64,000 bases of DNA from Chloranthus sessilifolius (taxonomy: Eukaryota; Streptophyta; Magnoliopsida; Chloranthales; Chloranthaceae). Under the pieces are notes generated by a model. It ran no database searches. It was not told the origin of the DNA and saw only the letters and a program-made list of their open reading frames with translations. The position numbers were made by a program, and so were the translations under genes. Below, piece after piece: positions 16,297 through 64,000 of the stretch (position 1 is its first letter; every line of letters starts with the position of its first letter). Location: the NCBI GenBank assembly GCA_021018995.1, contig CM037587.1:64747604-64811603 (forward strand), read 5' to 3'.

Positions 16297-17848
16297 TGAT
16301 TAGTCACATAATTTACCAATTTATCATTCATAACTTAGTGATGCTAGGCTTTAGTTTTCTACTAATGAGTTATTGACATGTAGATATTTAAGATAAACAG
16401 TAAAAGAGAGCCCTAATGTTAATCTTTGTCAATGTGAACTCAAAAAGTAGTAAGAAAGACGATTAAGCGTTAAAGGCGATTCACCGCTATTGAAAGATAG
16501 AAAATTGTAATTTACGATTGTGCGCTGCTGCTGAAGTAAAAGAAAGAAATAAGAAATCGTTATTTTAACGATTCCTTAAAAAGACGATTCTTCAGAAGGT
16601 GACAAAAGTGTAAAGATGATATAAGGAGAAAAGAGATTGTTTGAATAAGAAATAGTTCAATATGAAAGCCAAAGAGTAGAAAATCGTGAATTACGATTTT
16701 CCATATAAAAGGAAATAATCGTTATGTACGATTATATAAATAGAAGCTTTTATATTGTTGTTGCTGCTGCTGATCATGTGAGAACCATTACCGCCATGAA
16801 CAAAATTAGAAGATCTCTATAATTAGAAGTCGGGTGAAGTACGGATTTGAGAAGATTGATAAAGAAGAATATTAGAAGGACTTTGCTGCCGCTAAATAAA
16901 GAATATTTCATAAGCACATCAGCCATTCAAAGTAAAGGAAAAGATAAAAGAAGAAGTAGAATTATATTAGGATAGTTTTTATTTCTTTTATTAGAATTAG
17001 AACTTGTAAACTAACTCCTTATGATCTATGAATAAGAGAGCCAGGTCTAGGAATAAGTTTATTGAAGAATTCAGCATCAATTGATGCTTGAGGTTAGATT
17101 TTCTTCTGATCAAAGTAGTGTAAAATAGTTAGAGTAGTTTAGATATCCAAGGTTTCTCAAGAACAATTGACGCCTGCAATTGAGTGTTGAAGATTAGTGT
17201 AGATATCTATAGTTTCCCATAAGGAATTGACGACTCTGGCTGAGGGTTGAAGGATATATTTTTACTTTGCTTTCTAGATTAGATTTATATTTATGCAATT
17301 TAAAGCTTTGTAAATATCTCCAAGTTTTAATTTGAATTGATGACTCAGGTTAGAATTTGCATATTAGTGTAATGGTTTTTATTTTCCATCTTCAGTTTTC
17401 TAAAGTTTGATTGATGCCCAAATTTTAGGAAGTTGTTGATTAGATTGAATCTGTATTGATAGGATTTTAGCATTGATTGACACCCAATGCTAGGAAACTA
17501 GAAATATAGTGTAATAGTATTATTTAAATTCATAAATATCAAATAGCTAAAGATTAGGATTGACGACCTCAATCTGAAGAAGGAGGATTTAGATTTATTT
17601 TATGCATTTTAGTTTAATAAAAATTCTTTTATTCATATTTCTCTAGTAGATTAGATCTTAAGGATAAATAGAAGTTTTTAAGATAAGAATTTAATTAAGA
17701 GATATATATTAGGGATAAGAGATAAAGAAACTTCCTCATGTGAACGATCCTATGCTAGTACTATGATTTTCATGGTGCGCTTGCAATAGGTTAAGACTTG
17801 AAATTAAGATTAATATATATATATATATATATATAATAGATCAAGTCA
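16297..17848 (+). repeat. 5' LTR of element C (AATCGT-palindrome family)
   Basis: The right edge is firm: it ends CAAGTCA immediately before the PBS spacer. The left edge is placed at TGATTAGTCACA (16297) from the TG rule only. U3 contains AATCGT-n5-ACGATT palindromes (16503-16735) leading directly into a TATA box; U5 includes repeated ATTGATG/ATTGACG stretches around 17070-17560 and a TA run at 17816-17835. Confidence 0.7.
16503..16742 (+). promoter_or_regulatory. Palindrome cluster and TATA box of LTR C
   Basis: Four palindromes share AATCGT/ACGATT arms: 16503-16519 (one arm mutated), 16555-16573 (arms AATCGTTA/TAACGATT), 16680-16700 (AAAATCGT-n5-ACGATTTT) and 16715-16735 (ATAATCGT-n5-ACGATTAT). 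The last overlaps TATATAAATA at 16733-16742. Three have a 5-base centre. The closeness to TATA suggests binding sites for a dimeric factor at the core promoter, which is inference. Confidence 0.8.
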
Positions 17849-17854
17849 AGTTTT

Positions 17855-17871
17855 TGGTGCCACTACCGGAG
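17855..17871 (+). other. Primer-binding site of element C (tRNA-Asp type)
   Basis: TGGTGCCACTACCGGAG lies 6 bases after the LTR end. It is the tRNA-Asp primer site TGGCGCCGTTGCCGGGG with four substitutions, and marks the boundary with the 5' LTR. Confidence 0.75.
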
Positions 17872-18156
17872 AAGTGAAATTTATCTTTATTTCTATTTTT
17901 ATCTACTATTTTTATTCTTTTAGAAACCAATATTTATCTTTCCCTTTTTATATTTCTTTATATTTTTTATTTTTCTTTGATCACTTCTAATTCTTTTGTA
18001 GGTTTATTCAAAGTATCAGATTAGATTTTCAACACTTCTGAGGGCCCCAGAAATTACAAACTCAGATTTGCTTCTCCCCTTGCTTGCTAAAATAAAAAAT
18101 TAGAAAATATTACAAACAAAACTAACTGTTCTGACTGAAGTGTTTTGTCACTAACA

Positions 18157-19230
18157 ATGACAAACAACGGTCAGGACATTACTAAGACTAGGAGGGAGTG
18201 CTACGCCTTGACACCTCATACACCCCCTCATGTATCCAAATACCTCAAACTGCTGATAATAAGGATTTTAACATCATGCCCAAAATACTTCAATCACTTC
18301 CAATATTTCATGGGCTGATGAATGAAAACCCTTATTTGCATTTAAAACAACTTATAGAAGTGTGCAATGATATCCAAATCACAACTTTGCTAGATACATC
18401 TATTCGCTTGAGGCTATTTTCATATTCTCTTAGAGATGAAGCATTGAAGTGGATACATTCTTTGCCTCATAATTCGTTCAGTAATTGGGAGGACTTAGAA
18501 TGAGGATTTTTCATGGAGTACTTCCCAATGCATAGAACGAATCAAATCCGGTATCTTATCAGAACTTATAAACAATATCCAGATGAATCTCTTCAAGACG
18601 GGTGGATGCGCCTTAACGAGCTTTTGTATTCATGTCCTCACCATGAGATCCCAAAATGGAAAGTAGTCCTCACTTTCTATGAAGGTCAGAATGACACAAC
18701 ATGGCACATAATTGATGTTGCCTGTGGGGGGATGTTCTATTCGCTATCTGCAGAGACTGCGTGGGAATTCTTTGAAAACTTTAGTGAGGAACCAGTGCAA
18801 TGCCAAGCACTGGGTGAGACTGAATCGGAGACTGCAAGGAGTATACCACTTAGGTAGAAGGGATTATACAAATTAAAGAAAATGATGAATTGTTTCCCAA
18901 AATTAAAACTTTGGAAGACAAAAAAATCAATCTCTGTTGAGTGTAAAATTGCACCCAACATCTCAATGAGAAGAAGCATGTGAACCTAACCACGGCTTGA
19001 CCCAGAGAATTCCTCCGCAACCTCCTATATTTTGCCCCACATAGACCCAAGACCATATGGACATAGAGGAAGCCCTGATGTAGATAGTCGATAGCTGGCT
19101 GCAGCATGGCAGGATTCAAACACAATTACTCAAAAATCTCCTGGAATCCATTACACGGTTAGACACTCAAGTCAAGCAATTAATCATTTTGGCTAACTCG
19201 AGAGAGAGTAAATTTTCTTCCTCATGACCA
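18157..19230 (+). pseudogene. gag: gag of element C
   Basis: After a likely start at 18157 and a frame change before 18240, the frame gives FNIMPKILQSLPIFHGLMNE, then RLRLFSYSLRDEALKWIHSL, a stop, and EYFPMHRTNQIRYLIRTYKQ, GWMRLNELLYSCPHHEIPKW and DVACGGMFYSLSAETAWEFF. These are the ordered blocks of Athila Gag (compare K at 51300-51840). The C-terminal part past 18857 is broken by stops and has no clear zinc knuckle. Divergence from K and F shows a separate family. Confidence 0.78.
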
Positions 19231-19400
19231 GTTGGCACCCTAGGAGGACATATTTTTATGAGAGGCACATCAACTCCCCTTGATCGTTATTGAACCCCTC
19301 CTGAACTTGTCGAGCTACTGATGCATCTGCAGCAATCATGTGTAAAATATGTATCATTGTAGTGTTAAAATGAAAATTCTTTATGATTTATTAATTGTAT

Positions 19401-19738
19401 TAAATCGTACGAATCCTTTTCTTTATTTTAGAATCACTTGAAGAGTATGGATTTACATTTTCTTGTGAATGAAGAGTCCAATCGTAGCGAGTACGATTTA
19501 TAGAGTCCCATAGTCTCGTGATTGTTATCCAGAATTATAAAGTGACATTTCTGGGGAACAGGAGAACTGGTGATCAGTCCTATCGGTTACATTGGAAATC
19601 AACCTCATTTACACTTGTAGAGAGAACAGACATGCAATACATTCAATTTCACCACCTACCAACCATCCTATCCTAAGAACCTACACCTCAGCATTTAACC
19701 TAAAGTGATGGTTTAAAGCTTACATTTTCTCTATAAAT
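19401..19738 (+). promoter_or_regulatory. Internal promoter-like region of element C
   Basis: Between gag and the second ORF the LTR-type palindrome recurs: AATCGT-n7-ACGATT at 19480-19498 and AATCGTACGAAT at 19403-19414. A TATA-like CTATAAAT follows at 19731-19738, then a pyrimidine-rich leader (19755-19790). This parallels the LTR promoter of the same element. Confidence 0.55.
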
Positions 19739-19784
19739 CGATACCTATCCACAAACCAAATCCCACAACCTTTCTTCTTCCTCC

Positions 19785-19911
19785 GTCCTTAACCCTACAT
19801 CCCCTGACGGAAGAATATAACTCAAGTGATTCTAGCAAAATATTAGATAGAATTCTTGAAAAATATAGAGCTGAGGTCCTGGTTACACCACAGAAGATAG
19901 AAGATCTGAAG
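19785..19911 (+). pseudogene. First half of the unidentified second ORF of element C
   Basis: An open frame gives acidic, helical-looking sequence (SSKILDRILEKYRAEVLVTPQ) and is cut at 19911 by the solo LTR; the continuation is at 22173-22808. No start codon is certain, since the likely ATG region is mutated. No family is recognised. Position after gag, behind a promoter-like region, matches ORF1 of K and L. Confidence 0.45.
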
Positions 19912-20284
19912 TGTTTAGTGAAAAATACCATTTTTCACCTCCTAACCTGACCTTTGATGGACCCTTGAGTTGACTAATAAGGTATTTTAAGTGTGTTTTG
20001 TAGATAAGCAACAAATTGCAATCTTAGTACAGACATCCATCTAAAAATGCCAAAGAAGAAGTATACTGCTCAACATGTGCTCAAATAGCCGAAAGTCCAG
20101 CCAATCAAGTAATCCACAGAGCCTTATAAGTCCATGAGAATGTCATGGGCCCAACTAGGTATGCTTGGAACCAAGTGCATTTGCAAGGAATGTAGATTGA
20201 ACCTACCAAGAGGCTACTGTGTGCTGATAGATGAAAGACAACACACCAAAGATGTGTACAAACTATGGAAACTCAAAGCAGAAC

Positions 20285-20925
20285 ATCTTGAGAGGTTACC
20301 TCAACATGTCGAGAGGTTCTAGAGAGAAAAGACCAGCTATCGAGAGGTTCTATGAACCTATCGAGAGTAACTGAGGGTGTACTTGAACCTGTCGAGGAAT
20401 TAAAAGGTGAAGAATGTAAGCTGTCGAGATGTTCTGAAGTTGTTTTATAACCCGTCGAGAGGAGGTACTGGGGTGGAAATGTAAAGCTGTCGACAAGTTG
20501 ACGCAACCTATCGAAGGGTCTGAGGTGTAGTAGATGATCCTGTCGAGAGGATACCTAGAGGTGCAAGGGAGCTCGAGAGGTTCCCCTGAACCTATAGAGC
20601 AATGCATGGCAAGCTATCGATGACTTACCTGAAGCTACAATCAATGGTGTGAGGTTGAATCGACCTGTCGAGAAGTTGAGCACATCCTATCAAAAGCTCA
20701 ACTGGAGCCTTATAAGAAGTCGACAGGATCTTTATAACCTGTCGAGAGGATGTAAGAAGCTTAGATAGAAGGAGAAAATTCATCTCAATCCTATCGACGA
20801 GTTCAATAGAACCTGCCAAGGAGTCAAGCAACCTATCGAAAGCCTTCAGCAACCTGTCGACGTGAATATAAAGAGGACACAGAACTTGTCAAGAGGTTTC
20901 CTGAACCTCTCGACACTCAAATTTG
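20285..20925 (+). repeat. TCGA near-palindrome array in the solo LTR
   Basis: About 20 copies of the CCTNTCGANAGG core, in the same relative place as 1536-2137 of LTR A but with different spacing and decay. Examples: GAACCTATCGAGAG near 20354 and CCTGTCGAGAGG near 20738. Confidence 0.82.
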
Positions 20926-21183
20926 GAACTTCTCAGATCCTTTCACAGCGGCTGCTAACTCTCGTGCTTTGTGCACACATTCCAAAGCACGTTAGCGACC
21001 CTTGGGGGTATTTTTGGAACACAGTTAGGCACGAATGGGAAATCTAACCACTTCACATGTACTTACCAGCTTTGGACCAATCAGTGGAGAGCTTCTAGAA
21101 GAGAAATCAGCCACATCAGTAGCTAAGAATAACTATAATATTCCCTTGAGCTGTGATTGGTTGAAATATATCTAAGGGAAGAG

Positions 21184-21191
21184 TATAAATA
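21184..21191 (+). promoter_or_regulatory. TATA box of the solo LTR
   Basis: TATAAATA, about 260 bp after the last palindrome, at the position of the TATA boxes in LTRs A, B and F. Confidence 0.7.
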
Positions 21192-22172
21192 GAGGAGAAA
21201 TTTCACTAAAAATTCATCCAAAAATTGAGAGAACCAGAGCCAAATTCGATTTTCATTTTCCCTCCAAAAATTTCCTCTCTCTTCCTTCTTCCCCCATTCT
21301 CTCCTTAGCCAATCATGGTTGGCTAAACCTCTTCAATAGCTAGGGTGAGGTTGATAGCTGTAAATTGAGATTATCAAAGGCTTTGTAAATGGATTGTATG
21401 TTGCACAGATTACAGATCTGAGCATAATAGGATTGTAAGCTGTATTATTATAGTATAATTGTAGTTTTTTAAGTTGATTCTAATCCAAATTTTACTTTTT
21501 CGTATTTAGTTTCCCTGGATTAGATATCCCTATGGATGCTTAAGCTTGTAGCCTGGCACCCACAGCATCTGCAATAGCTTACTTGTTCCAATCAAGATCC
21601 TTGAATTAGAACAATCTCTGGGATGATCTGTGACCATTCAAGTGGATAGATCATAGCCTTAGGATTGCTCTAATTCTTTGGTTGAGATTAGATTCTTATA
21701 CCTTGCAACTAAGCTTGTAGCCAGATGAAGGATTGTAGCAAATCTGTCCTATGCATTGCCTTTGATCCAATTAATTTTCAGTAAAGACCAAAATCCCTAG
21801 CTGCTGCTCTCCACCTTTCGATTTTAATCTTTTTCTTCATTCTCTTGAATCTGAGTTCAATCAGTTCTGGATCATTTTGCATTCGATTTTTATAGTTTTT
21901 AGCAAAGTGACAAATCTTAGAAACCTCTCCTCTTTCCTGCTTTGATTTAGTTTAAATTAGGATAGGGTGTCAGATCTGTCATAGATATGGAGATTTACCT
22001 CATTTTAAAGCACATTTCCCTGTAGACCTACCCTGACTTACCTATTAAAGCTTGTTGCAATAGCCCTAGTTCTTGCAAGACTGCTTGCTTACCTTGAGCT
22101 CATATCTCTGTACTTTGTGCTCTTATTTTGATGTTTTAACCTTTTAATAGTTGTAAGGTAAGCAAGTCAATA

Positions 22173-22808
22173 TGAAGCGCTAGTGATTTATTCGAGATGT
22201 TGAATCATCCACCGAAACCACCTTTGACCCTAAACCTAACCCAAATTCAAACCCAGATTCGAAGAACCCATTTACCCCCACTTCCTAACCCTTATACCTT
22301 AACCACCCACCCTGATTGCATGTTCCTTTTCCACAAGGATGGGTTATGCTTTCCAGTGTCATCGTTCATCCCATCCTTGATCTCCTCGCCACCCATCTCC
22401 ATTGGTCCTAGTTCCCCCTTCCCAACTCTACAATCTCTTCGTATAATCTTCGCGGGAGAGTAGTATAGGCTGAATGGGGGGCTGAGATGTGTTCACTTTC
22501 CCACTCTTCAAGTCACTTCCATCTTCTCAATCGTAACTGCACTAAGGGTGCAGTTGGGGGATCAAGGGAGGGATTTTGAAGGCCAGTGGGGAGTGTTCGA
22601 TAGCTCTTGGAGTAGCAACTCTGATGAGGTGTGGAGATTCTTTTCTAAAGAAGAGGAGGGGAGGCAACCCTGCAAAGGCATGGATATGCCTTTGCTGGGA
22701 AGAAAGGATGTCGAGACCCTAGCAAAAGGTAGTTATAAGCCGATGACCGATCTTTATCAAAGACCTTTCATCTCAGACTTTGCCACCAGTATCTTAGTGT
22801 GTGTCTAG
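22173..22808 (+). pseudogene. Second half of the unidentified ORF of element C
   Basis: Two overlapping open stretches (22197-22463 and 22548-22808) give Pro-rich sequence, then FEGQWGVFDSSWSSNSDEVW and LLGRKDVETLAKGSYKPM. One stop and a frame change lie between. Together with 19785-19911 it would make one gene of about 250 codons interrupted by the solo LTR. No known domain is recognised. It is unlikely to be a protease or polymerase. Confidence 0.4.
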
Positions 22809-24720
22809 ATTTTTCCTAGGAATTTCATTGATGTAACTAGTTTTCTTTCCTTATTTCTATAATTAGTTCATATATATATATATATAATTTTTTTATGTTG
22901 TTGTTTCTATTTTTACTTTGTTACTAACATTTAACATTTTTCTTAGTTTAGTTCCATTAAAATCGGAAGTATTTTTCTCCTAAGTTTGGGGGGAAAATTT
23001 ATTGATTATTTTTATAGATTATAAACCCGATACATGAATAGTAAAATACGGTAAAATAATTCTTGTATGTCCCATGTTTTGCACAATGAGGACATTGTCC
23101 TATTTAAGTTTGGGGGGGATACAAGATATCAATTTTTTTTAGAAAATTTTTACAATTTTACAATCCTCAGTTAATCATTATATGAGATTTATGATGAGAA
23201 ATATGGAAATCCAAAATTCTTAGCAATCCATCATAGTAGTAGTTCAAAATATCAAAATAAAAATAGTTACAATTCAAGTAAAACATCTCTAGAATGTTGT
23301 ATCAGATGAATGTTTGAAACTATACAATTGATCTGAACTACAAAAATATTTTAGATTATAATTTCAAAATTATATAAGTAGTGAGCTATAGAGCCTATTT
23401 CCTCTTTTCTTTCAAGAGAGACTATTTTTATTCATGTTAAAATTTTCCTCGATCTTCTTTACTACTGAAATCTCATATTACTGAAATTAGAATCAAAATA
23501 TTCTAAAAATATGATTATTTATTTATTTAGAACTATCTAGTAAATATATCAAAGCAATAAGAAATCCATATTAATAAATCGTGAAAATGACCACAAGCCA
23601 TCTTTTGTTAAACCAGAGCCAAAAAGCCAAAAAACCCATAACATTTTACCTTTTGAACCCATATTAGAAGCTTGAATGAATTCTTTGTACCATGAAATTA
23701 TGTAAACCTTTAACCATATGTACTACCCAAAGTTTTCTACCTTTAACTCTTACAATTTTTGAGAGTTTAGAATGTAAAAGAAGGGAAGAAGAGGGAGTGA
23801 AAGGAGTATGCAAGTAATAGATAAAGGATATGCTGAAAAAATGGTACATGAGAGAATTTTTTTTTTTAAATGTATGGAAAAAGGAATGAAAAATCATAAA
23901 CAGACAATTTTATAGAAAAGAAGAGAAGCATGGATGCTTCTAAAGTGTGAGAAAAACAGAAAAAAATATGGGATTTATCTTAGAAAAGAAATGGGAAGAA
24001 GTTATCCAAAAATAAGGATACTTACTGAAGTACAAAATGAAGAAGATAGAAAAGGAAGTGTTAAATTCTTAGAAAAGAAATCTTTTGAATCCTATCTACC
24101 TTCCTTTAGACCTTAAACCCAATGCCCCATTACAAGTCAGAGGAAAGACCTTTGTGATTTACGATTTGCAAAAATATGAGTCTAGTAGAGATATATAAAT
24201 TAGATACTATGAATAAATGAAGAAGTTATATGAACAGAATTGATTATCCTTGACATGAGATTTATTTTTTTAGTTAATTGTCCTTTGAAATTCATATATA
24301 TATTGTGAGAACCCATAATTTTGATTATTTTTGAGGGTATGCCAAAAAGTGAGAGTTTGAATGAAAATATTTTCTAAAAACTGTAGTTTAGAAAAATCTA
24401 TGATGAATAAACTTTTTACTAATATACACACACTCTATGCTATATTGAATTGAAATTGTTGAGTTCTGATGAAGGGTAATTACGAGTTAAGGATAAAATA
24501 TTTGAAAATTTTTGAAAAAAAAATAATGAACATATAATGAATGGCTGGGTATTTAAAACTAGTTTATATTTTGAAGTTTTCTGAAAAATAATATTTTGAA
24601 AAATCCAAAAATATTGGAAGTTTGTACGTAACTTTACTGGAAACCTTCAGAAGACTACAACTCCTCTACTAGGGATCACCTAGGGGTTTAAAGGCTTGTT
24701 GCATCTGCTAGGGACTAGCA
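22809..24720 (+). other. AT-rich 3' tail of element C
   Basis: No gene is seen. G-run motifs AGTTTGGGGGG (about 22982) and AGTTTGGGGGGG (about 23107) look like polypurine tracts but no LTR follows. The end (24660-24720) matches the last 120 bp of L's internal region (56235-56360, opposite strand), including CTAGGGACTAGCA, then breaks off at 24720. Confidence 0.55.
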
Positions 24721-25407
24721 CCACTTCATGGATCAAATCCCAAAACGAAGGAATATCAAGGAAAGAAGAGAGATGAGCAAGCCCAAGATGATCTAAACCC
24801 GCGATCTCGCTCTTTGTCAGCCTATGAAGACAATGTTTCAAGAAAATGGGCCCTGTACCCAAGGTGGGAAGTATAAAAATCTCGCCCCCCCTATGGGGCG
24901 GGGTCGTGAAGCGGGACCATGGTCATACAAAACCATTTAAAGTAAACCACGATCCGATGCAGGACAATGGACCCACCCATGGGAGGAAAAGATAGGGAAA
25001 AAAAAGAAGAAGAAAAAAGAAATCAGAGCAAAATTATGAGCCCAACTTTAAAACTGAAAAATAGAATGCATTCCTGAGCCTTATAGGCCCATCAGAGACC
25101 AAAGGTGCCTTGTGTATACTTTATATACGCACGGCCAAAATTTCCAAGAAAATGCCTTGCGTATATAAAATATACGCAAGACTAAAAATCCATACAAAAT
25201 TGCCTTTCGTATACTTTATATACGCATGCCCAAAAAACCTCCAGAAAATACCTTGCATATATAAAGTATATGCAAGACCAAAAGACCAAAAAAAACTATA
25301 AATACGTATATATATACACATATAGGGGCTATTTCCCCCTTTACCTTTGTTGGACCTATCCACCTACACTCAATAAAATTTATTTCTTTCTTTATGGAGG
25401 GCACTCC
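24721..25407 (+). repeat. Partial 5' LTR of element J
   Basis: It contains four palindromes (25107-25276), TATAAATA at 25297-25304 and AATAAA near 25371, and ends CACTCCA before a PBS-like GACTGCGAGCTGGGACA (about 25409-25425), which resembles the tRNA-Arg-type site of G at 38598. The LTR 5' end is missing: element C meets it at 24720. Confidence 0.5.
25107..25304 (+). promoter_or_regulatory. Palindrome cluster and TATA box of the J 5' LTR
   Basis: Palindromes: 25107-25135 (imperfect), 25156-25180 (CTTGCGTATA-n5-TATACGCAAG, perfect arms), 25202-25230 (imperfect) and 25252-25276 (CTTGCATATA-n5-TATATGCAAG, perfect arms with both CpG sites lost). They are spaced about 48 bp apart. TATAAATA at 25297 starts 20 bp after the last arm. 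Confidence 0.8.
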
Positions 25408-25754
25408 AGACTGCGAGCTGGGACACCTAGGTTTACTACTTAACCCCTCTTATAGTTTCTTGTTTTAGGTACCATACTCAAAACAAATAAAGGAGGAATA
25501 TATGAACCTTGGCTATTTCAGCCAATGCATAACCTAGGGGTCATTTCCCCATTTGCCAAAACTCATGGCCCATCCTGCAAAAGAGCAAGCATATCACATC
25601 CAAAAAGAGAGATAACAAAAATAAAGGAAAATTAAAAACATCCACTCTATGAATTATCCCAATACACCGATCAGTCATTGTTATTACATTATTCCAAAAG
25701 TGCTCAAAAGTTCAAATGTTCATAAAAGGAAAAAACGAAAGCTGCTCCAGGTCC

Positions 25755-28700: not shown

Positions 28701-29050
28701 AATAAATCAAGAAAATAAAAAATGGGCACAAATTGATCAAGTTTTCACCAAAATCTATGCAATTGTACATGCAAATTAATCAAATGGATTACAAATAGTT
28801 ACATGTTTGCATGAAAAACCATCATTCTACCACCTAGAGAAAAAAATTCTAACTACATTGTGAAAAAAGTAAGAAGTTTAAGGAAAAAAGGGTTTAAAAT
28901 GGTTACCTTGGTTGAAATATAAAACCCTAGATCCGGCGTGGAATACGCGATTGATCGGCAATGTCAACACCGGCCATTGTCGAGGTTTGAATCAAATCAA
29001 TGACACACAAGGAAGGGCTCCCATTTCGGTTTGGAGAGAGGGAGAAGGAA
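25755..29050 (-). pseudogene. Antisense multi-exon plant-mobile-domain gene of element J
   Basis: Exons inferred from splice signals and coding: a leader ending near 28908 (CAAG|GTAACC); 27935-27737, with ATG at 27934-27932; 27672-26997; about 26734-26411; 26327-about 26108; 26025-25957; 25871-25755, with a stop at 25757-25755. Introns show GTAAAA/TGCAG (27736-27673), GTAATT (26996), GTACTT/TTTCAG (26410-26328) and GTAAGT/TTTCAG (25956-25872). PMD blocks: LVERLRPETMTFHTFVAEMT, then IMGITIRGDPV after a 1-base frameshift near 27440, then WGGPGYAILMGSLARASVGD and IYGFWPVIEV. PMD proteins such as MAIN and MAIL1 of Arabidopsis act in nuclear silencing and repair. Function here is unknown; the frameshift suggests a dead copy. 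Confidence 0.7.
27936..28906 (-). repeat. First intron of the antisense PMD gene, with a diverged tandem duplication
   Basis: The intron lies between CAAG|GTAACC (28907) and TCTTTTCAG|G (27936). Inside it two copies of about 240 bp (from about 28265 and about 28505) share a G run, CAAATGRCAA, and TTCACAA-AATATCATTTT. No gene is seen here. Confidence 0.55.
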
Positions 29051-34588: not shown

Positions 34589-34597
34589 AAAACTAGT

Positions 34598-53489: not shown

Positions 53490-53763
53490 ATGGCCCCTAA
53501 GGGCACACCTTTGAAAAGAGTAAGGGATAAGGCTCCCGTGGAGCCCACTCCCAAGAAGGCCAAGTCCTCAACGGCGCCGCAAAAAGGGAAAGAAATGGTT
53601 CAGGAAGTGGCTGCGCTAACACCTGATTACTCTACACCCTCTGAGCTCCTAACTCCCATTCCCTTGGAACCTAAAGCTGTTTTTGACCTATCTTTCTTTG
53701 AAACGAAACCTCTGTCCGCCCCTGCCATTGAGTTCATGCGCAAAGCTGGATTGACCCCCCTGC
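53490..53763 (+). pseudogene. ORF1 of element K, truncated by insertion of L
   Basis: The first 91 codons match ORF1 of L: KRVRDKAPVEPTPKKAKSS, TPDYSTPSELL and FFETKPLSAPAIEFMRKAG. At 53764 the LTR of L begins, so later codons of this open frame (to 53816) are LTR. The basic N-terminus suggests a nuclear or nucleic-acid-binding protein. See the L copy for the full domain. Confidence 0.8.
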
Positions 53764-56212
53764 TGTTGTTGTCCCAAGTGTGCTTCGCTTATTGGTTGGT
53801 GGTGAAAGTTATTTAAAAATCAAAAATAGAATAAAACAGGGGATGAATCAGCACAACTCAGAAATCCTAGACCTGCAAGATACAGGGTCCTTTGTAGCAA
53901 GTTTTGATAAGTAAGAGTTTGTCCCATGTGAAAGCAGGATCTAAGGCCCAAGGAGCTGCCTCTAGTCCCTCCTGATCTGCATGATCCGGCAAATCTAAAA
54001 GGAGGGGAGTTTAAGGTCACTTATTCTAAGTATTCTAATAACTAAATTACAGAAACGATTGAGAGGATGGGTGGAGTGTGGAAAATAATTATAAAAAGGT
54101 GAGAAATATGTTATTGAGCCAAGGTCAGAGGAGTTTTGTAACTCAGATTTAGATCTGATGTTATAGAAATCCTGTCCAGAGGCTACATTATCACCTCTGA
54201 GGAGAAAGGATCCAACCCATCTCTACTGCCATGACTCCACCCTTAGGGCTATAACCTGTCCACTTGAATGGTCACAGACTATCCCATAGGGGAGCCACAA
54301 TCCAGGGATGGGTCAGAACATAAATAAATCATTGCAAGCACTATTTCATCTAGGCTACCAGCTCAAGATTCCATAGGGAACCTCAACCTCTAAAGTTCTA
54401 TATGTGGGGCTAAGGCTAGAAAACCATGATAGCCCAGACACATAGAACCAGCAAGCGATTGAGTACAACCTTCGATCCAGCTGTCCATTGCTTGAGAGAG
54501 GCTACAATGATCCAGTCACCAGCCTACAATCTCTATAACCAGATCAGATCCAACATCTGATGGCAAATCTATACAAATATGGGGGAGTCTGGCTCTGTAC
54601 AATCCCTCACCAGGTTTCTACTAGCTCAGGTGAAAAGAAGAAGGATCCATCTTGGATCGGTGGATCAGAATCACCCTAAGGCTATAATCTGTCCACTTAA
54701 ATGGTCACAGACTATCCCAGAGGTTATCCTCCTCACGGAGCCCAAAATAAAACAAGATTGTCGCTGCTACCAACATGTTCACCAGGCTACCAGCTCAAGC
54801 TCCCATGGGGATTTCAGATCTAGTAGGTCCTGTGGTGGGGCTAAGGCTGGAAGACCATGATAGCCTAGACACACAAGTCACTTGGATCTGAGTGGCCCTT
54901 AAAATCTGTCCTCCATTGCTTTGAAACACAGCCAAGGCAATGGGGGATCACAAGGCAGCAACCTTGCACAGAGCATCTCACATATAAACAACAATCCCAC
55001 AAAGTACAAATCCTATTACAAAACTTCCATTAATCTAACTCAAACACATATACAAAGTCATAGCCAGCAATTGCTGGACTATGGAGAGAAGAAAAGAAAA
55101 AGAAAAAGAAAAACTACTTACTGCTAAAAAGGAAGAGAAAAGAAAAGCGATCTGAGATAGGTTCCCGATACCTAAACCTAAGATAGGCCTGGGTATATGT
55201 AGCAGTGGGGTGGCGGCGTATTAGGGTTAGGAAAACCTAATTTTAACGATGCCACGTGGCTTTATACTGATCCTTGGATGCCTCGAGGCGTGTGCACAGA
55301 GATTTGAGCGTGGGAGTGCGTGCCCTAGTCACTAGAAATTTCCAGAATGCCCTTTGCTGAAGAGATGGAAGTTTAGGTTTAGAGCCTCGCTAGGTAGCTG
55401 TAGTTTCCCAGACTTATTGCATGGTAGCTCATTGCTCTTCGCGAGGTTGATTTGACACTAAAGCTTCAACTGTCGTGAGGTTGCCTTGGTTTGCTCTTTA
55501 GGCAGTCACGCGGTAGAGAGTTAAGCTCTCGTTGGGTTGGAGTTCGCGAGGTTGAATAGAAAACATTTCCGGCCGCATAAAGTTACAATTCAAGCGATGC
55601 GCGATAGATTACATTTGGCGGTCAAGAACTGCGCGAGTTACCTCGCGAGGTTCTTTTAAGTTCTGAACTGCGCGAGGTTCTTTGTCTCACTCAATCTTTG
55701 CGAGCTTGGCTTCGCCTTCGCCGGGATGCTTTCTTTCTTGAATGGCGCGCGAACTGCGCGAGGTGTTCTTCTTCTGAGAATTGTACCCCGCGGCGACTGC
55801 ACGACAGTTGTGCGAGGAATCTTCTGAAGCTCTCTCTCCTCAGCTATCTTAAGCGAACTTCGCGAGATTGAGAGAGGTTTGCTTTGAACTGTGCGACACT
55901 GAGCGATGTGTTCTACTCTTGAGCTTCATGAGAGCTGCGCGAGGTTGAGTTTCTGAAGCTCCTCAGTCATTCATCTGCGCGAGAGGTTGCTGTAAAGCCT
56001 TGGGAAGCTCAGCTGATCTACATGAGGCTTCGAAGTGCATTCTTGCTGAGGGGCATCTGGTGCCAAAGCAGGCTCCATAATAGGATTCTTGGCCTTATTT
56101 CACCGCTGATTATTTCCTGAACAAAACACTTAAGAAGAGTTTATTAGGTGGCTAAGGGTCTAATCAAAGGTTAAGTTAAGGGGTGAAAAGTGGTACTTTT
56201 CAGGTCTTAACA
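53764..56212 (-). repeat. 3' LTR of element L
   Basis: 2449 bp. On the minus strand it starts TGTTAAGACCTG (56212) and ends GACAACAACA (53764). The CGCG palindromes lie at 55380-55990 (for example GAACTGCGCGAGGTTC, 55680-55665). The TATA region is decayed (CTACATATACCC at about 55200) while K keeps TATATAAA. It differs clearly from the LTR fragment at 63456-64000. Confidence 0.88.
55380..55990 (-). repeat. CGCG near-palindrome array of LTR L
   Basis: Over a dozen CTGCGCGAG/CTCGCGAG-type units, several in the full form GAAC...CGCG...GTTC (55665-55680; 55626-55653 as a pair). Confidence 0.82.
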
Positions 56213-56224
56213 CACCCCCAAACC
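56213..56224 (-). other. Polypurine tract of element L
   Basis: The minus strand reads AGGTTTGGGGGTG directly before the LTR TGTTAAG. It fixes the orientation of L. Confidence 0.85.
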
Positions 56225-58070
56225 TAATCTTTGCTAGTCCCTTAGCAAAGCTACATTAAATCTACTCTAAAAATTAAATGCCACTTTCGTAGGGAGCACG
56301 GATACATTTAGCATATGTACCAAGCCTTTTAAACCCCTAGGTGATCCCTAGTGGAGGAGTGAAGTCTCCTAAGGGTTTTCAGTAAAGACACCCACAAACT
56401 TTTTCAATGAAATGGTTAACTAAACTGTAATGTCATCCAATGAGCAGTTAAGGAATCAGATTTAGTCTACTCATGAATCAGCATAAAAGAAATTTAATTC
56501 ATTGGTTGCACAGGAACTTAGACAGCGTAAACTCTCATGTTTGCACAACATTTCCAAATAATTTGTGATCAAAGAAAACTGCACAAGCGTATGTCAGCAC
56601 TGAGCTTATCCTTATGTCAGACAATTAGGTTAAGGTCATACATAATGCATTCAAGTTCAGACCCAAAAGAAAGCTTTATAGGGCATACTCTCATCAAGGT
56701 TTGTTGAGGGGTTTAGTTTCTCACAGGCTCAAGAGCAGTTACATCCCCCAACTGGGTTTGTAAGCATGAGCATAAGCAGAGTTCTTAAGTGTTGGCTTCA
56801 TTGTCAGTTTCTCACCATAGATTGGATAATTCCTTATCTTCACATGACAGCTCACTCAATCTTTGGATCAGAAGGGCATTCAACTGGGTTGGAATGTGGC
56901 TTATGGAGTATGGTTAAAAAGAATGGAAGGTTTGAAAAGGGGTTCAAAATTTGAGAACTCAGTGGGTGCAGGAGGTCGTTCATGACTTCACCTTCCTGAA
57001 TTCAGCTCCCTTCATCTTCTTTAAGATTTTCAGATTTGAAGTGATCAGTTTCTCTTCTTGATTTTGATTTTCCAATGAAGGTTCCTCTTGACTTCTCTCT
57101 TATTCCTCTTCATTATTATTTTTTTTGTTTCTTTTTGCTGGAGTTTTCTTCTTTTTATTTTGTTTTTGCTTTTCAGAAATGCCACCATGTCCTTAGTTAC
57201 CACTCTGCCAGAGTAGATGCTTCTTCTCTATTCACCTAATGCTGACCATAGCTAGTCCATCTTCAACTCTTTCTCCTTTACCTTCTGAATTCTCAGAGTG
57301 AGGGTAGGTTGAATCAGGTTTATAGGTTCAGGTTCAAGTACTCAGGTGTATTTTGAAGAAATTTAGGATTTAAAGCTCAAAGGGGGTATGGACAAGGGCA
57401 GTTACTTTAGGATTGATCTTTTTAGGCTCAAACTGTCCAAGAGAAGGCCTTGATCCTTTCCTAGGTCTCATGAGTACTGTCAGTTGTTTCAACTTGGAGT
57501 TACCTAACTTCTAGTGAGCACAGTGACTCAGCCAGTCTTTAGAACTAGAAGAAATGCCTTAGTTACTCCTCAAAGAAAAAATTTTGTAGGCCCAATTCTC
57601 ACTGGTTATGGTCATCCTTTGAACTTTCAAGTATGTCCTCACCTTTTTCTCTCTCTAATGATTCACTAAGGGCAGATACAAGTGGGTTTTCTTGGTAAAA
57701 CTATTATGGAAATGTGGAATATTAGAAGTCTATAATGTTCAATGTTTGCATAAATTTTAAACTTTTTAATTTCATGATTCTTAAGTGAACAGAGGTCCAT
57801 TTCCATATTCACTGCACTTATGTTAACTATTCCATTGGTGGTCTCACGCTTATACCCCAAACCTATGAGGAGGAGTGTCCTCACTGGTTCAAGGTCAATG
57901 TGCAGCAGACTTATTACAACATAAAAGAAAAGGAAAACAAAACACACAGACAAAGTAAGACAATAAAGACAGGGGAAAAGTCTATGAAATATTAGAAATG
58001 TACAAAATACAAGAGAACATATGTAAAAGAAATAAAGGAAATCCTAGGTACAATCTAATCAGAATTTGGA
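56225..58070 (-). other. 3' noncoding region of element L
   Basis: AT-rich, no supported gene. The part next to the polypurine tract (56235-56360) is shared with element C (24660-24720, opposite strand). The minus-strand frame 57953-57666 has no known motif and no match in K or C within the window. Confidence 0.55.
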
Positions 58071-60922
58071 TTAAAATTTGTCCCAGCCCATCTTCCTTGC
58101 ATGTTCTTGAAGGAGAGCCTCTTCTTCTTTCTTCTTGCGTTCCCTCTCGGCCTTCCTCTTCTCTGGAGTTTTGGGTATGGTAGGAGCCTGGACCCTCATT
58201 TTTCTCTTCTTTGGCTCAGGAGGGATCTCCGAAGATTTTGCAGTGGGTGGCTCAGGGGGTTTGGTGGGGGATTTCCCGCTGGGGCCCGTACCTTTGGTGG
58301 CTTGCCCTAGCTGAGGCAGAGGTGGAATAAGAGATGATTGGGTTGGTGGAGGCTCAGGAGGGGCAATGGGAGATTTGGCTAGAGCTGGCATTTGAGACAG
58401 GAGAGGACCTTTCCCTTTTTCTGCTTTAGGGGGAGCCACAGGAGATGGAACTGGTAATTTCTCTGTATGCACGGCAGGGCTCTTCCCTTTCGCGGACTTG
58501 CTTGGTGGTGGTGCCTCCTCATACTGGGCAGATGGTTCTTTGCCAATTTTCAAAGAGCGAGTTGGGGGAGTGGTCTTCTTAGCAGCAACTTTTCGTCGCT
58601 AAGGATAGGATTTGGTCATAGGGCATCTCCAGGGGCAGCCATGAGGGTTGGGCACCGGGATCCGAGGGTGGTGCCTCATCGAGTCGTAATCAAGGAAAGA
58701 GCTCAGTAGGGTCCAATCCTAGGGCAGCAGCAGCCTGTCTGCGTTCTTCTTTGGAGAGGAGGCGCCCATGGGGATCATCCTAAGCGGAAGCTCGGGTGAC
58801 CTTTGGAGGTGGGGATGGAGGGGCCGGCCGTTTGCCTTTTGGGGCTACAGTGGCTCGCTTAGGAGTGGGCTTTTTCTTGGAAGGGGTGCATTTCCTTTGG
58901 ATAGCAGGAGAGGGAATAGGGGGGGCACTGATATAGGAGGAGGAGCTACAGTAGGGGTTGCAGTAGGAGCAACAGGTTTGTAGGTACTGCAGAAGGAACG
59001 GCAATAGGCATTGAAGGAGGAACAGGAGGGGCTACCGGAGTGGGGCTGTGGGAGTTGGGGGAACAGACTGTGTAGGGGTTGGTGTAGGGGTTGTGGAAGA
59101 AGATGGGCCTGGATGTGTGGAAGAAGATGGGCCTAGATGTGTGGAAGAAGATGGGGCTTCAGGGGGAGCGGTGGTGATGAGGGTGGCTTGGATAGGTTGG
59201 GACTGCAGGAAAGCAACTCTCTGTTCCAAGATGTCAATTTTCTTGTTAGCCCATAGGAGATTGGTATCCGCAAGCTCCTTACTGAGATGGGTGATCTCCT
59301 GAGCATTGTTCAATTTCTTCTCCAATAGCCGGGTATGCTTTTTCACCCTCTCAGCATTAGCCTTTTCCATCTCATCAGTCATTTTGTAGTAAGTTGCTGC
59401 AACCTTGTGCGCAGTTGATGTCTCCAGAATTGCCTCCCATCCTTTTGAAAAATCGCGCAGCTGCTCATTGTGAGCAAGCTTCACATCACTAAGCTTCTGC
59501 AGCAAGGGGTATTCAATGGCTTGGCGGAGTTGGGCCATGCCATGGAGAACATCCCTCTTGATATAAGGATTGTCCCTCATGGCATGGAGGAGGGTGAAGT
59601 AGGGAGGGGTGTAGTAGGAGTGTCTGGGCATGATTGGGAGAAATGAAGTGGAAGGAAGAGAGGGTGATGGAGCCTGGGGGGGAGAAGTGGGGGTTGTAGA
59701 AATGGTTTGGGTGGTCTGGGTGGAATGGTCAGTGAATTGAGGAGGGGTGGGAGGAGAGGGGAATGGAAGGTATGGGTGGAAAATGAAATGAAGGAAGGGC
59801 ACTGATGTGGATTGTCTGTGGGGAGGGAAGAAGGGTATGGTGAAGGGTTGAAATGGAAGGAGGGGGGGTGCAAATAGGGGGTTGAATGGGAAAGGTGGAT
59901 GGGAATGGAATGGGGTCGTCTGGTAGAAGTGTTGGTGAATTAAGGAGGGGGTAGTATTAGAGGTGGAAGGATAGGGAGAGAGGGAAAGGAGTGGTCAGGT
60001 ATGGTATCATGGAGGGGGAAGGATGGAGGCGAGTCAATGGGGGTAGGGTCTGGTGGAACAGGGGAGGCAGAGGTGGAAGGGGGTTGTGTTAGGATTGGTG
60101 GGTTTGTCAATGTGTGAAGGGTGGATTGGATGGTGGTTATGTCAGTTTGCATTTGGGCTTGGGTATCTATGGTGCTGGATAGTTGGGTTTGGAGGTCATG
60201 GATAAGGGAAAGGATATGAGTAAGGGAATTTGAGGTTGGTTGAGGGGGGTAGGAGGGTAAGAAGGAATAGGTTAGAAAGGGGAAGTGGGGGCATGATGGA
60301 AAGGGGTAGGGGGGAAGGGGGGGGGGTCGGGTGAATGATGTGGTGAAGGGAGAGGAGACTCAGGGAGAGGGATGTCTTGGGTGGGCAAGGTATCAAGCAA
60401 ACTGGTCATGAAGGCTTGATACCCAGAGGTGGTGGCTAGGTTGAAGTCCAGGTCATGGAGAGGTTGGTCACTAAGGGGTGTGGATGTGGGAAGGGTAGGG
60501 GTAGTGTGAGAAGTTTTCTTTTTAAGGTAGGTTATCAAGGGAGGGCTGTCAGGGTGAGGATCAGGGGTTATGAGAGAGACAGGGGCTGCTGATTGGGGTA
60601 GGGTGGGTGAAGGTGGAGTGGTGTCTTGGGGTTCAACACTTTCTTCCCAGGTTCGGATAATGGTTGGAGGGGGAATGGAGAAAGGAGAGGAAAGAAGAGA
60701 AGTGAGAGATGGAATGGGTGAAGAAGGTAGGGGAGAGGCCAGAGTAGTGTATGGAGGAATTACTGCAGAAGCAGAGGTGACAGAAGCTCGCGCCACCTTC
60801 TTTGGGGCAAGGGTTTTTGCCTCCTTTTTGGGGGCAGGGGTGGCAGTTGCCACAGCAACTTCCTCACCCTGCTCGGGGACCTCCTGAGCTACAGTCTTCT
60901 TCTTCTTCTTCTGGGGATCCAT
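58071..60922 (-). pseudogene. ORF2 of element L, Pro-rich and coiled-coil protein, frameshifted
   Basis: It starts at 60922 (MDPQKKKKK, a basic tail) and runs 2.85 kb in pieces: 60922-60272 (Pro/Ser/Thr-rich), 60152-59940, 59802-59032, 59004-58780 and 58553-58071. The third piece has a helical segment (about residues 95-200: EMEKANAERVKKHTRLLEKK, KKIDILEQRVAFLQ) suited to a coiled coil, then three SSSTH-G-P repeats. The last piece ends in a Lys/Glu-rich helix (EKRKAERERKKKEEEALLQE). At least three frame changes separate them. No family is recognised; such low-complexity ORFs occur downstream of ORF1 in pol-less Athila-type elements. Function unknown. Confidence 0.55.
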
Positions 60923-60982
60923 TAAGCTTCTGCTGATCCCCCATTGTCATTTAGCAAATGTGGTGGGAGTGAGGTCAGCGGA

Positions 60983-61807
60983 TCACTCCCCCACTGGTAT
61001 CTTATATCCTCCCCTCAGAAGTAGTCTGGTGATGAGTCTTCCATAGGGAAGTGTGTGGCTCTTCTTTTGCAGCCCCAGCTTCACCATTGTATCCTTCATG
61101 GCCTCGAAGATCAACCATGCTGCATTGAATCCATTGCCCAGAGAGAAGGAATATAGAGCATCAACAATTGGTGTCCTCCTTTCTTGCTGATGGCCGGAGC
61201 AATAGATGTTCTTCCTCAAAACTTGATCAATGAACAGCAGTTTAGGCTCCAAATATCTTCTTCTAATGGAGTCCCCTATGGCCTTCAAGCCTCTGATAAT
61301 GGCATGGGCAATTGTGTCAATGGGGGCACTCACAGGGGGACCATAACCGCAATTGGGATCAAATCTGGCAGGGATGCCCAAGACTTCAGCGATCAACTCC
61401 GGGCTAAGCAGCATCTCAAAGTTATCAACTAATGCAAGGAGGCCTGGCTGCCCTTGTGTGTTGGGTCTGAGCCTAAGGTGTTGGTAGAAGAGTTGCACTA
61501 ACCTAGGGTAGGCTAGTGCAGGAATCATTTGCAGCATGAGGAACAGACCAGCCTTACGCAAGAACTCGATGGCAGGTGCTGACAATGGTTTAGATTCAAA
61601 GAAAGAGATATAAAAAATGGCTTCAGGCTCTAAGGGAATGGAAAGGAGGAGCTCAGAGGGTGTAGAATAATCCGATGTTGGTGCAGCCTGCTCCAGTACT
61701 ACCCCCTTCCCTTTTTGCAGAGTCGTAGAGGACTTGGCTTTCTTAGGTGTAGGCTCCACAGTGGCCTTGTCCCTGGCTCTCTTCACAGGTGCGCTTTTAA
61801 GAGCCAT
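60983..61807 (-). CDS. ORF1 of element L, Athila-type accessory protein
   Basis: An intact 274-codon frame. Residues 1-40 are basic (KRARDKATVEPTPKKAKSS), perhaps a nuclear signal. Residues about 75-270 form a helical domain with FYQHLRLRPN, EMLLSPELIAEVLGIPARF, KLLFIDQVLRKNIYC, NAAWLIFEAMKDTMVKLGLQ and SHTLPYGRLITRLLL. The LPY-x-x-LIT-x-L ending and overall order resemble the ORF found in Athila-type elements and annotated as plant retrotransposon or putative plant transposon protein. Its biochemical role is not known. It lies about 290 bp behind an internal TATA and 60 bp before ORF2, and the K copy begins with the same sequence. Confidence 0.72.
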   Translation of the reverse strand: MALKSAPVKRARDKATVEPTPKKAKSSTTLQKGKGVVLEQAAPTSDYSTPSELLLSIPLEPEAIFYISFFESKPLSAPAIEFLRKAGLFLMLQMIPALAYPRLVQLFYQHLRLRPNTQGQPGLLALVDNFEMLLSPELIAEVLGIPARFDPNCGYGPPVSAPIDTIAHAIIRGLKAIGDSIRRRYLEPKLLFIDQVLRKNIYCSGHQQERRTPIVDALYSFSLGNGFNAAWLIFEAMKDTMVKLGLQKKSHTLPYGRLITRLLLRGGYKIPVGE

Positions 61808-62610
61808 CCCAACTTCCTTGGTGAGTGTGGAGTTACAAATTTGAAAGGAAATACCAGGAGCTGAGTCTAACCCTAAAAGTTAGGGTTCTATTTAATGGAA
61901 CGCATAAAGGATCTCAAGAGCTCTAAACAGGGGGCAACTATTAATGAGAGCTTGAAGAACAAAAATTTTGAAGTTCGATGTGAACAATGATCTGGGGACA
62001 AGGTGCTAAAGGAGAGAGGTGGAGAGGAGTGGGAGCTAGGGTTTCGCTGGTAAGAGAGGAAAGAGAAAGCAGTAAGGAAAAGCAGTGCGGGGTGAGATTT
62101 AAATATCGCAAAGCTCGGCGCGCTTTGGAAATGTCCGCCTGCTGGTTGGGAATGAATGGGTCGCGAGATTAGATGTTCCTTGAAACTGCGCGATGCAACC
62201 CACCCAGTTCTTTGAAACTCGCGACAGCACAACAAAGTAGTTCCTTATGAACTGCGCGAGATGGGACAAAACTCATTGTTCAGAACCCCGCGATGGCTTA
62301 ATCGAGGCAGATTCACTCACCCACCAGTCCACTTTTTGACCCTTACCAAAGGGGTGGATTCTCTCACAGACTCTCTTCAAGGGACACCCCTAATCATTAT
62401 AAAGCATTCACACTTCTTATACTCTCAAGGCAAGAAAGTCACATGTCCCGCAAAGCATTCAAATCATCATTCAATCACTTAAAATTATCACACAGGGGAA
62501 ATTGGTATCAAAGTAGGCATTAAAGCACTAAACTCAAATTCCAACAAGATTGCAAACTATTCCTACAAACTGTAAAATACATATTATACAACGATGCACA
62601 GTTCTTATCA
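61808..62610 (-). promoter_or_regulatory. Noncoding gap and internal promoter of element L
   Basis: Between gag and ORF1. CGCG motifs occur at 62250 (GAACTGCGCGAGA), 62210, 62190 and 62160, then TATTTAAAT at 62106-62098 and a leader with GAAACCCTAGC (62044-62033). Same layout as 52625-53489 of K. No pol fragment is seen. Confidence 0.6.
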
Positions 62611-63455
62611 TCAATTCAATGAAAGATCCCCTTCAGGTTCTGAGGATCCTTCACCAATCAAAAATTGGCCCTTAGGATTAACCACTGGTTGACTGGGCAA
62701 CCTTCCCTCTTCTCTTTTGGCTAGGGTGTTCGCTAGTTTTCCAATCTGCTCCTCCATCTTCTTGATGCTCTGACCATGAGAGTTCACAGTCTGAGCCAAG
62801 GAACCCAAGTTTTGCAATGAAGCGAAGACTTGGTCCTCAAAAGAAGTATTTCTTGGTTGAGAAGGGGATAGAACCAACTGATTTTGCTGCTGATGGGGTT
62901 GCTGGTGGTGCTAGAAGGTAGACCTCGGGGCATGCCCTTGATTGAACTGTTGCGGTGGCCTTTGTGGTAAAGCCAACATCTGCTGGGCCTGCATGTAGTT
63001 ATCTTGCTTCCACCTCAGATTTGGGTGGTCTCTCCATTGGTAACCAACATTTTGGTGCTATGTAGCCCCAGTTGTTCTTGGCCATAATAAGCGAAAGACA
63101 GATGTTCCAACATTAATTCAGGAAATTGCCCTGCAGATGGACATTCCTCCATTGTGTGCTGTGGGGACTGGCATATCAGACATGCCTCTGCCACATGAGC
63201 AGCCCTTCTAGGTTGCATCACAGTCAATAATTTATCAAACTTGATAGAGAGGTTTGCCATCTGTAGCTGTAGGTCATTATTCCCAGACACATCATAAATT
63301 TTTCCTTTGGATCCAGCAGCAGGCCCCACCTTTGACTCAGATTCCTGATGAGTCCTTGTCAGGGATGGCTTTTGAAAAGCATTCTCACTAATCACCTCAA
63401 ACAATTCCCATGCCTCCTCAGCAGTCTTGTGCATGTAGGATCCACCACAAAACAA
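62611..63455 (-). pseudogene. gag: gag C-terminal half of element L
   Basis: It begins in YMHKTAEEAWELFEVISEN, after the K-equivalent CGGTYMHK. The zinc knuckle CLICQSPQHTMEEC (C-x2-C-x4-H-x4-C) is intact, better than in K and F. After a stop at 63015 the C-terminal frame 62877-62611 gives SIKKMEEQIGKLANTLAKR and ends DLSLN. The N-terminal half, PBS and LTR end are missing: the sequence jumps into LTR interior at about 63455. Confidence 0.82.
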
Positions 63456-64000
63456 AACAACATTATCGCTGCTACCACCATGTTCACCAGGCTACCAGCT
63501 CAGGCTTCCATGGGGATTTCAGATCTAGTGGGTCCTGTCGTGGGGCTAAGGCTGTATCGGACCATGATAGCCCAGACACACAAGTCACTTGGATCTGAAT
63601 GGGTCCTTAGAATTTGTCCTCCATTGCTTTGAATCACAGCCAAAGCAATGGCGGATCACCAAACAGCAGCCTTGCACAGAGCAACTCACAAACACATGAA
63701 TCTCATAAAAGTACAACACCCAATCACAAATTCCATTAATCTAATCTCAATAAACATACATAGGCATGGCCAGCAAGTGCTGGGCCATGGAGAGAAGGAA
63801 AAAGAAAAAGGAAAACTACTTACAACTACAGAAGAATAGAAAAGAAGAAGATCTCAGATCACGTGTCAGTGATAAGGTCTGAGCTCTTCTGGGCGTCTAA
63901 GTCTAAACAAAAGGTCGTCTCCAAAGTCCCTAAACCTAAACCAGGCTTAGGTTTATATAGCAGTGGGTGTGGCAACGCATTAGAGTTAGGAAACCCTAAT
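63456..64000 (-). repeat. LTR fragment fused to the gag of element L
   Basis: Matches K's LTR from about 49740 back to 49199 (opposite strand), including the TATA box (TATATAAA, 63959-63952). It resembles K more than L's own 3' LTR: for example it shares CAAAGCAATGG and CCCATTCAGATTC with K where L has CAAGGCAATGG and GGCCACTCAGATCC. It runs out of the window. Confidence 0.85.

Follow-up and report, generated by a model that had tools for sequence, protein, structure and literature searches.

The sequence analyzed here (the window) is a stretch of 64,000 nucleotides from the 2.17 Gb genome of Chloranthus sessilifolius (contig CM037587.1, positions 64,747,604 to 64,811,603), and it is filled by nested long terminal repeat (LTR) retrotransposons. 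In the elements C, BJ and K/L, the palindrome of the LTR U3 region was found to recur ahead of an accessory gene, close to a TATA-like box, as a preliminary description of the window had claimed. Other copies of these families keep the motif, and the observed internal counts were reached in only 0-12 of 5000 shuffled sequences across C, BJ, K and L. The sites and the genes they precede, several of which are open reading frames (ORFs), are listed below by element.

16459-16735, plus strand: U3 of the C LTR, array of nine AATCGT, ending at a TATA box (~16733)
19403-19498, plus strand: internal cluster of C, with the palindrome AATCGT-N7-ACGATT at 19480-19498, upstream of TATAAATC (~19732)
19790-19911, plus strand: start (approximate) of the C accessory ORF region, cut by the solo LTR D; pieces resume after 22173
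30249-30374, plus strand: U3 of the BJ LTR (LTR start 30005, TATA ~30654), two palindromes CTTGCGTATA-N5-TATACGCAAG with 1 and 2 mismatches
29116-29188, minus strand: palindrome and half-site of BJ, where the antisense PMD gene probably has its promoter; TATA-like TTTAAAA at ~29099-29105
25741-28985, minus strand: antisense PMD gene of BJ (approximate limits, broken frame), PMD pieces at 27434-27988, 27258-27536 and 26928-27233
25107-25276, minus strand: four palindromes of BJ with a period of 48 bp, internal, where a second antisense gene probably has its promoter; TATA-like CCTATAAGGC at ~25078-25087
24726-25060, minus strand: 5' part (approximate) of the second antisense gene, which resumes past C at 16296 downwards
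14960-16296, minus strand: remainder (approximate) of the second antisense gene, weak PMD matches
48537-48805, plus strand: U3 of the K LTR, CTGCGCGAG/CGCG cluster; TATA ~49235
52998-53196, plus strand: CGCG cluster of K and TATATAAT (~53189), upstream of ORF1 (ATG 53490)
53490-53765, plus strand: 5' end of K ORF1, truncated by the L LTR
55440-55981, minus strand: U3 of the L LTR (U3 start ~56212, TATA-like ~55195), fourteen CGCG
62085-62310, minus strand: putative ORF1 promoter of L, six CGCG; TATTTAAA at ~62098-62105
60983-61807, minus strand: L ORF1, matching PF20167 (Transposase_32) at E 3e-8 and 34.2 bits, against a curated cut-off of 45

BJ, which had been described as two elements (B and J), is a single Ty3/gypsy element split by the insertion of C: in 5/5 BJ copies, sequence matching the window from 16291-16296 downwards joins directly to sequence matching from 24724-24727 upwards. 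It was assigned to Ty3/gypsy because its pol matches RVT_1 and RT_RNaseH in Pfam, here of the Ty3/gypsy type. C (~16297-24720) sits in the gap of BJ with flanking bases CCACC and CCACT, and its own accessory ORF region is split by the solo LTR D (~19912-22172), which has TGAAG on either side. K ends at 53765, where the minus-strand LTR of L begins. No pol was recognized by Pfam in the scanned pieces of C, K and L.

Internal stretches were each tested against 5000 dinucleotide shuffles, using words taken from the U3s. In C, AATCGT is the top-ranked word of the U3, and of its 21 occurrences in the window nine fall at 16459-16728, three at 19403-19493 and nine elsewhere; 4/5000 shuffles reached the count of the internal stretch. 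Seven of the 39 listed C matches were analyzed, and all seven carry 2-5 AATCGT in the internal stretch, while the U3 carries 5-8 in 5/5 assessable copies; in the other two the fetched stretch ended before the U3 cluster or did not align. A retrotransposon gag was recognized in C, with a TTTTTGGCGCC-like junction after the LTR at 17851, and the pieces of the accessory ORF matched no Pfam family. No 3' LTR of C was recognized at 24618-24720, although the insertion looks exact. The segment 24618-24710 of C matches 56309-56401 of L, ~100 bp ahead of the 3' LTR of that element.

BJ carries its palindromes at three sites, namely the LTR, the PMD gene and a second PMD-like gene. Allowing one mismatch, the half-site CTTGCGTATA occurs 17 times in the window, with eight at 25109-25267, two at 29134-29167, four at 30250-30364 and three elsewhere, so that 14/17 fall in the three clusters. 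The LTR starts at 30005 with TGTAGACACCC, preceded by a purine tract, and the cluster at 30249-30374 is therefore that of the U3. The preliminary description had placed a J LTR at 25107-25276, which proved wrong: this stretch does not align to the BJ LTR and has internal flanks in the five copies examined. It is most likely the promoter of the second antisense PMD-like gene. To its left, the minus-strand TATA-like CCTATAAG is present in the window and conserved in 4/5 copies (locus L033 differs); to its right, the plus-strand TATA of the window corresponds to TA repeats in three copies and is absent from two. The PMD matches of the first antisense gene (E 4e-4 at 27434-27988, 0.017 at 27258-27536 and 0.004 at 26928-27233) are all under the curated Pfam cut-off, and its start codon is uncertain, the ATG at 28977 being not conserved among BJ copies. 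Those of the second gene lie at 16032-16280 (E 0.01) and 15738-16031 (E 9e-4).

Neither BJ internal site had its count reached by any shuffle (0/5000 at the PMD promoter and 0/5000 at the 25k site). In segments of 67-86% identity, the palindrome cluster is kept in five copies at each of the three sites lying within the fetched stretch, the weakest being the PMD promoter of locus L034, with only one palindrome carrying four mismatches. Loci L035 and L036 were fetched too short to reach the LTR cluster; in the three copies fetched with both, the 25k and LTR clusters are ~5.1-5.4 kb apart. Genome-wide, the exact palindrome gave 110 forward and 126 reverse matches, where one site can count on both strands, and a reversed control gave 0 and 0.

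For K and L, the claim had been that CGCG palindromes stand in the LTR and before ORF1. The clusters at both places were confirmed, the repeated sequence being closer to CTGCGCGAG / CCTCGCGAGG than to CGCG alone. Of 57 CGCG in the window, 33 lie within the two U3s and the two internal sites (K U3 eight, K internal five, L U3 14, L internal six) and 24 elsewhere. Four of the K internal occurrences are upstream of the TATA and one, at 53377, is in the 5' untranslated region (5'UTR). When the U3 words were ranked, the three K words came first to third and those of L first, second and fifth. Shuffles reached the internal count in 2/5000 for K and 12/5000 for L (3 with CGCG). Twenty K copies were fetched of 39 other matches listed, and 20/20 have an ORF1 promoter region with at least four CGCG and a visible TATA-like box.

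Twelve of these K copies were used for counting, and eight were omitted as out of register, interrupted or lacking a U3. R-U5/gag, the gap and ORF1 contained no CGCG (0.00 per kb), and the density was 12.9 per kb in U3, 28.8 in the 200-bp promoter and 5.6 in the 5'UTR; arrays are thus absent from the counted gag, R-U5 and ORF1 parts. Among the omitted copies, CGCG occurs once in locus L031 (4223, gag part) and twice in L014 (2212 and 3136). The ratio of observed to expected CpG was 0.83 in U3, 0.13 in R-U5/gag, 0.22 in the gap, 1.34 in the promoter, 0.45 in the 5'UTR and 0.15 in ORF1. The control word CCGG showed no enrichment, with 0.09 in U3 and 0 in the promoter. With respect to decay after insertion, motif CpGs were lost at 97/450 positions in U3, 48/300 in the promoter and 6/80 in the 5'UTR, and other CpGs at 49/160 in U3, 4/40 in the promoter, 20/107 in R-U5, 18/72 in gag and 34/236 in ORF1. 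Except in the 5'UTR, motif loss was well above non-CpG C-to-T loss (0.027-0.061). Motif CpGs decay approximately like others (in the 5'UTR less), and the idea that CpG retention is due mainly to fixed copies being shielded from methylation was therefore rejected. The replicating lineage must then have kept the motif, and selection in that lineage probably maintains the motif CpGs.

A gag was recognized in K, with a TTTTTGGCGCC-like junction after the LTR at 50731, and in K copies gag is followed directly by the ORF1 promoter region. Neither pol nor the Athila ORF-1 (PF03078) was found in the scanned pieces of L, whose ORF1 matches PF20167 instead. A search for homologues of the L ORF1 protein gave none at E 0.001 among 1264 candidates. 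K (50730-53765) and L (56212-63450) both have gag and ORF1 without a recognized pol. The 39 other K matches listed are 93-95% identical, which, with no recognized pol, suggests that K is a successful non-autonomous family. K-type LTRs were also seen inside the ORF1 region of other K copies (locus L027, 6594-9035; L030, from 7949; element orientation).

A further family, the Ty1/copia family S, repeats the design with ACGGACGTCCGT palindromes. It was met among genomic matches to PF20167, for which 13,856 first-look candidates were found and 150 scored. Locus L039 has eight near-perfect ACGGACGTCCGT-type palindromes upstream of its PF20167 ORF and a second cluster before a TATA-like box ~0.6 kb after the ORF. 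DNA of this second region has 40 genome matches, including five pairs 8.58-8.76 kb apart, a spacing that would fit LTRs, and the region would then be the LTR of the element. At locus L038 the ORF adjoins a Ty1/copia reverse transcriptase (RVT_2). Among eleven further upstream stretches, hand-picked for spread from the 150 listed, an array was present in seven, which fall in five groups aligning at 0.56-0.66. CpG enrichment is clear in the S upstream stretches.

When 300-bp windows were scanned without preset words, 12 hits were obtained, compared with 0/639 in simulated windows. Among them were the U3s of A, C, D, I and L, the J 25k site, three repeats of E and one AGATCT run. The additional U3 arrays are as follows.

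1540-2130, 20309-20907 and 35869-36164: dense CCTNTCGANAGG-like U3 palindromes of A, D and I
36422-36831: repeated U3 word of E's own, GCGTAATT/GCGCTTAATT-like; RVT_1 at 44295-44792

The A/D/I word CT[ACG]TCGA and the GCGTAATT-like word of E cluster in U3, and no second cluster was found in the visible, incomplete internal parts, where a single CT[ACG]TCGA occurs at 32031 in I. This pattern fits motifs that track promoters, the internal parts being incomplete and only partly annotated.

Shared family-specific motifs at the LTR and upstream of accessory genes, in other copies and in a further family, are thus well supported. We infer, as the natural reading, that a common factor may bind at both places. 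In the mechanism proposed, which we hold to be likely with good confidence, each family would carry arrays of CG-containing palindromes at its LTR and at each accessory promoter as sites for one dimeric DNA-binding factor, through which gag-pol and accessory transcripts would be switched on together. Transcription would run in the sense direction from the LTR and for the accessory genes of C, K/L and S, and antisense for the two genes of BJ. The factor would be either a host transcription factor recruited by the family or a protein encoded by the element, and we lean slightly to the host.

A number of observations weigh against this mechanism. The preliminary description was right that the motif differs by family and that its placement, at the LTR and upstream of an accessory gene, is the same; the distance to the TATA varies, at ~10-25 bp for the J PMD, J 25k, K internal, L internal and C U3 sites, ~235 bp for C internal, ~280 bp for the BJ LTR and at least ~245 bp for the K and L U3s. 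The scan without preset words missed the K U3, the BJ LTR U3 and the C, K, L and PMD internal sites. The K copies in which 20/20 keep the cluster were chosen by similarity to the internal site, and the C copies were selected likewise. The five BJ copies were chosen for at least two exact palindromes 4-5.6 kb apart, so that two clusters were in part to be expected from the selection; of the loci not so chosen, L002 and L003 have the LTR context, L004-L008 (one locus) the LTR and PMD promoter, and L001 palindromes without recognized BJ flanks. GCGTATA is only the second 7-mer of the BJ LTR, behind AAACCCA, and for this reason the BJ word was taken from the preliminary description. In alignments of the BJ promoters (locus L037 omitted from one), identity was 0.82-0.89 in the palindrome arms, 0.70-0.76 in other columns and 0.51-0.75 in the spacers, the arm values being partly circular because arm columns were selected by motif match; the lower conservation of the spacers is what a dyad would show and speaks for the mechanism. 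CpG enrichment at the BJ arrays is weak. In K, GCGC is also enriched (6.5 in U3, 15.4 at the promoter), as part of the same CG-rich array. In family S, locus L038 has only a decayed 3' cluster and no array upstream of the ORF, the array of locus L060, counted among the seven positives, is imperfect and has no full CGGACGTCCG, and four of the eleven stretches (L056, L061, L062 and L063) have none. Of these, L056 looks to lie in a copia gag-pol, L061 and L062 are ORF1s low in CpG, with a promoter that may fall beyond the stretch, and L063 looks unrelated.

As to the nature of the factor, the version in which host transcription factors bind both promoters, each family having built arrays for its own host factor, is plausible though somewhat short of probable. 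Repeated and sometimes palindromic cis-elements occur in the LTRs of several elements (PMC10760457, PMC2829016), and in the words of Sireviruses mainly sites of stress-related factors were found (Bousios 2010, PMC2829016). A host factor also needs no accessory gene, as in the env-less Sireviruses. On the other hand, PMC2829016 found no site of a single factor common to these words, and differing words among families of one genome would not obviously be expected.

The alternative version, in which an accessory protein binds the palindromes of its own family at the LTR and at its own promoter as a self-specific, VANC-like activator or anti-silencing factor, is possible and in our view rather unlikely. 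Each family here repeats its own motif, also at its accessory genes; VANC, too, targets short motifs that are specific to a family and repeated in non-coding DNA (PMC5735166, PMC10398659); and gene23 of Grande, a Tat accessory protein, has been described as a nuclear protein that has a promoter of its own (PMC7264820). However, the design is the same while the accessory proteins match different families, set apart here by Pfam match only: PMD in BJ, PF20167 in L and S and none in C, no search aimed at VANC having been made. Four env-less Sireviruses still have LTR motifs (PMC2829016). The variety of accessory families and these env-less elements therefore argue against an accessory protein as the general binder. 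A, D, I and E likewise have U3 arrays with no accessory gene recognized in their visible parts, and Pfam recognized no DNA-binding domain in the accessory pieces tried. A search against solved structures gave no match for an S ORF or a piece of the second BJ gene, and an NCBIfam search gave one match at chance level. The broader proposal, that PMD, PF20167 and the C protein are family-specific DNA-binding regulators which converged on VANC-like self-recognition across copia and gypsy elements, with motif turnover arising from escape from silencing by the host, is doubtful.

A role of the palindromes as hairpins in RNA or as templates for small RNAs, instead of as protein sites, is improbable. 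The LTR palindromes of maize Sireviruses are small-RNA hotspots (PMC5311732, PMC10760457); the arrays here stand upstream of TATA-like boxes in both orientations, and the cost of small RNAs would not explain the CpG retention in K. Slightly less credible still is that the internal promoters are copies of the LTR U3, the shared motif reflecting only descent. A U3 duplication could have seeded the internal promoter, and in S the U3 and internal stretch share one 74-nt match of 73% identity running through the arrays. It was disfavored since only short U3-internal matches were found elsewhere: in K, L, C and BJ the stretches match only over motifs, and none of the best matches (top four per pair) exceeds 16 nt in K, L and C or 45 nt in BJ. 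Motif CpGs also persist amid the low CpG of the K body. Chance or composition, to which the low word counts of three in C and two at the J PMD promoter might point, has a negligible probability and was rejected on the shuffle counts, the motif kept in other copies and the S family.

The elements resemble several known systems in part. In K and C a gag was recognized, and the LTR is followed by a TTTTTGGCGCC-like junction, which we take to mark Athila; pol was not recognized in the pieces of C, K and L scanned, nor ORF-1 (PF03078) in those of L. Ogre elements carry PMD in extra ORFs (57% of elements, PMC6317226), and BJ is likened to them by domain content, although it has two antisense PMD-like genes with the LTR palindrome upstream of each. 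A Ty3/gypsy pol and a PMD extra ORF, the features of Tat/Ogre, are both present in BJ, with PMD scores below the cut-off, which makes BJ a candidate member by domain content; an additional RNase H domain is a further Tat feature (PMC6317226). Grande gene23 and the antisense ORFs (aORFs) of other plant LTR elements (PMC7264820, PMC11963269) are also accessory genes lying antisense in the 3' internal region, and gene23 has its own promoter. A motif shared with the LTR is not described in the available text of these two papers, and BJ has two such genes.

VANDALs are DNA transposons, unlike the LTR elements here. The comparison with VANC that had been offered would hold in logic only, as both involve short family-specific motifs repeated in non-coding DNA; for VANC, binding to such motifs has been shown (PMC5735166, PMC10398659), and here the motifs are known from sequence alone.

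Multiple AGGGGGAG polypurine tracts before the 3' LTR are a criterion of the Sirevirus genus. A Ty1/copia pol, also characteristic of that genus, was not found in BJ or in the scanned pieces of C, K and L, and RVT_2 lies beside the S ORF in locus L038. The closest known system is nevertheless the repeated motif of Sireviruses, which the preliminary description did not name. These elements have element-specific, high-copy palindromes in the LTR upstream of the TATA, together with CpG islands, and nine env-bearing elements have extra copies in the linker, 77/79 of them upstream of env, which supports an internal env promoter (PMC2829016). The shared-palindrome design is therefore already known. 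C, BJ, K, L and S likewise have an LTR palindrome array upstream of a TATA, with further copies upstream of an accessory gene as with env there, and family S is of the Sirevirus repeated-motif kind. Where Sireviruses have CpG islands, enrichment here is clear in K and S and weak in BJ. The differences are that BJ is a Ty3/gypsy element and that C, K and L have gag but no recognized pol, that the motif also stands at two antisense genes (BJ), and that the cores are AATCGT (C), GCGTATA (BJ) and CGCG (K/L). The CGG-CCG core, which is general in Sireviruses except Tnd-1 (PMC2829016), is present in S only.

A search of titles and abstract openings, with most subscription journals outside its reach, gave no report of the shared-motif design in Ty3/gypsy elements, and its extension to these and to antisense genes looks new. 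The expression of the extra genes of plant LTR elements and the function of these genes are long-open questions. If one palindrome does control the LTR and every accessory promoter, the arrays would name the cis-sites and tie the accessory genes to control of the element. A design that was called specific to Sireviruses, as against other Ty1/copia elements (PMC2829016), is present in one genome in gypsy-type elements whose words differ, and it is therefore either convergent or older than thought.

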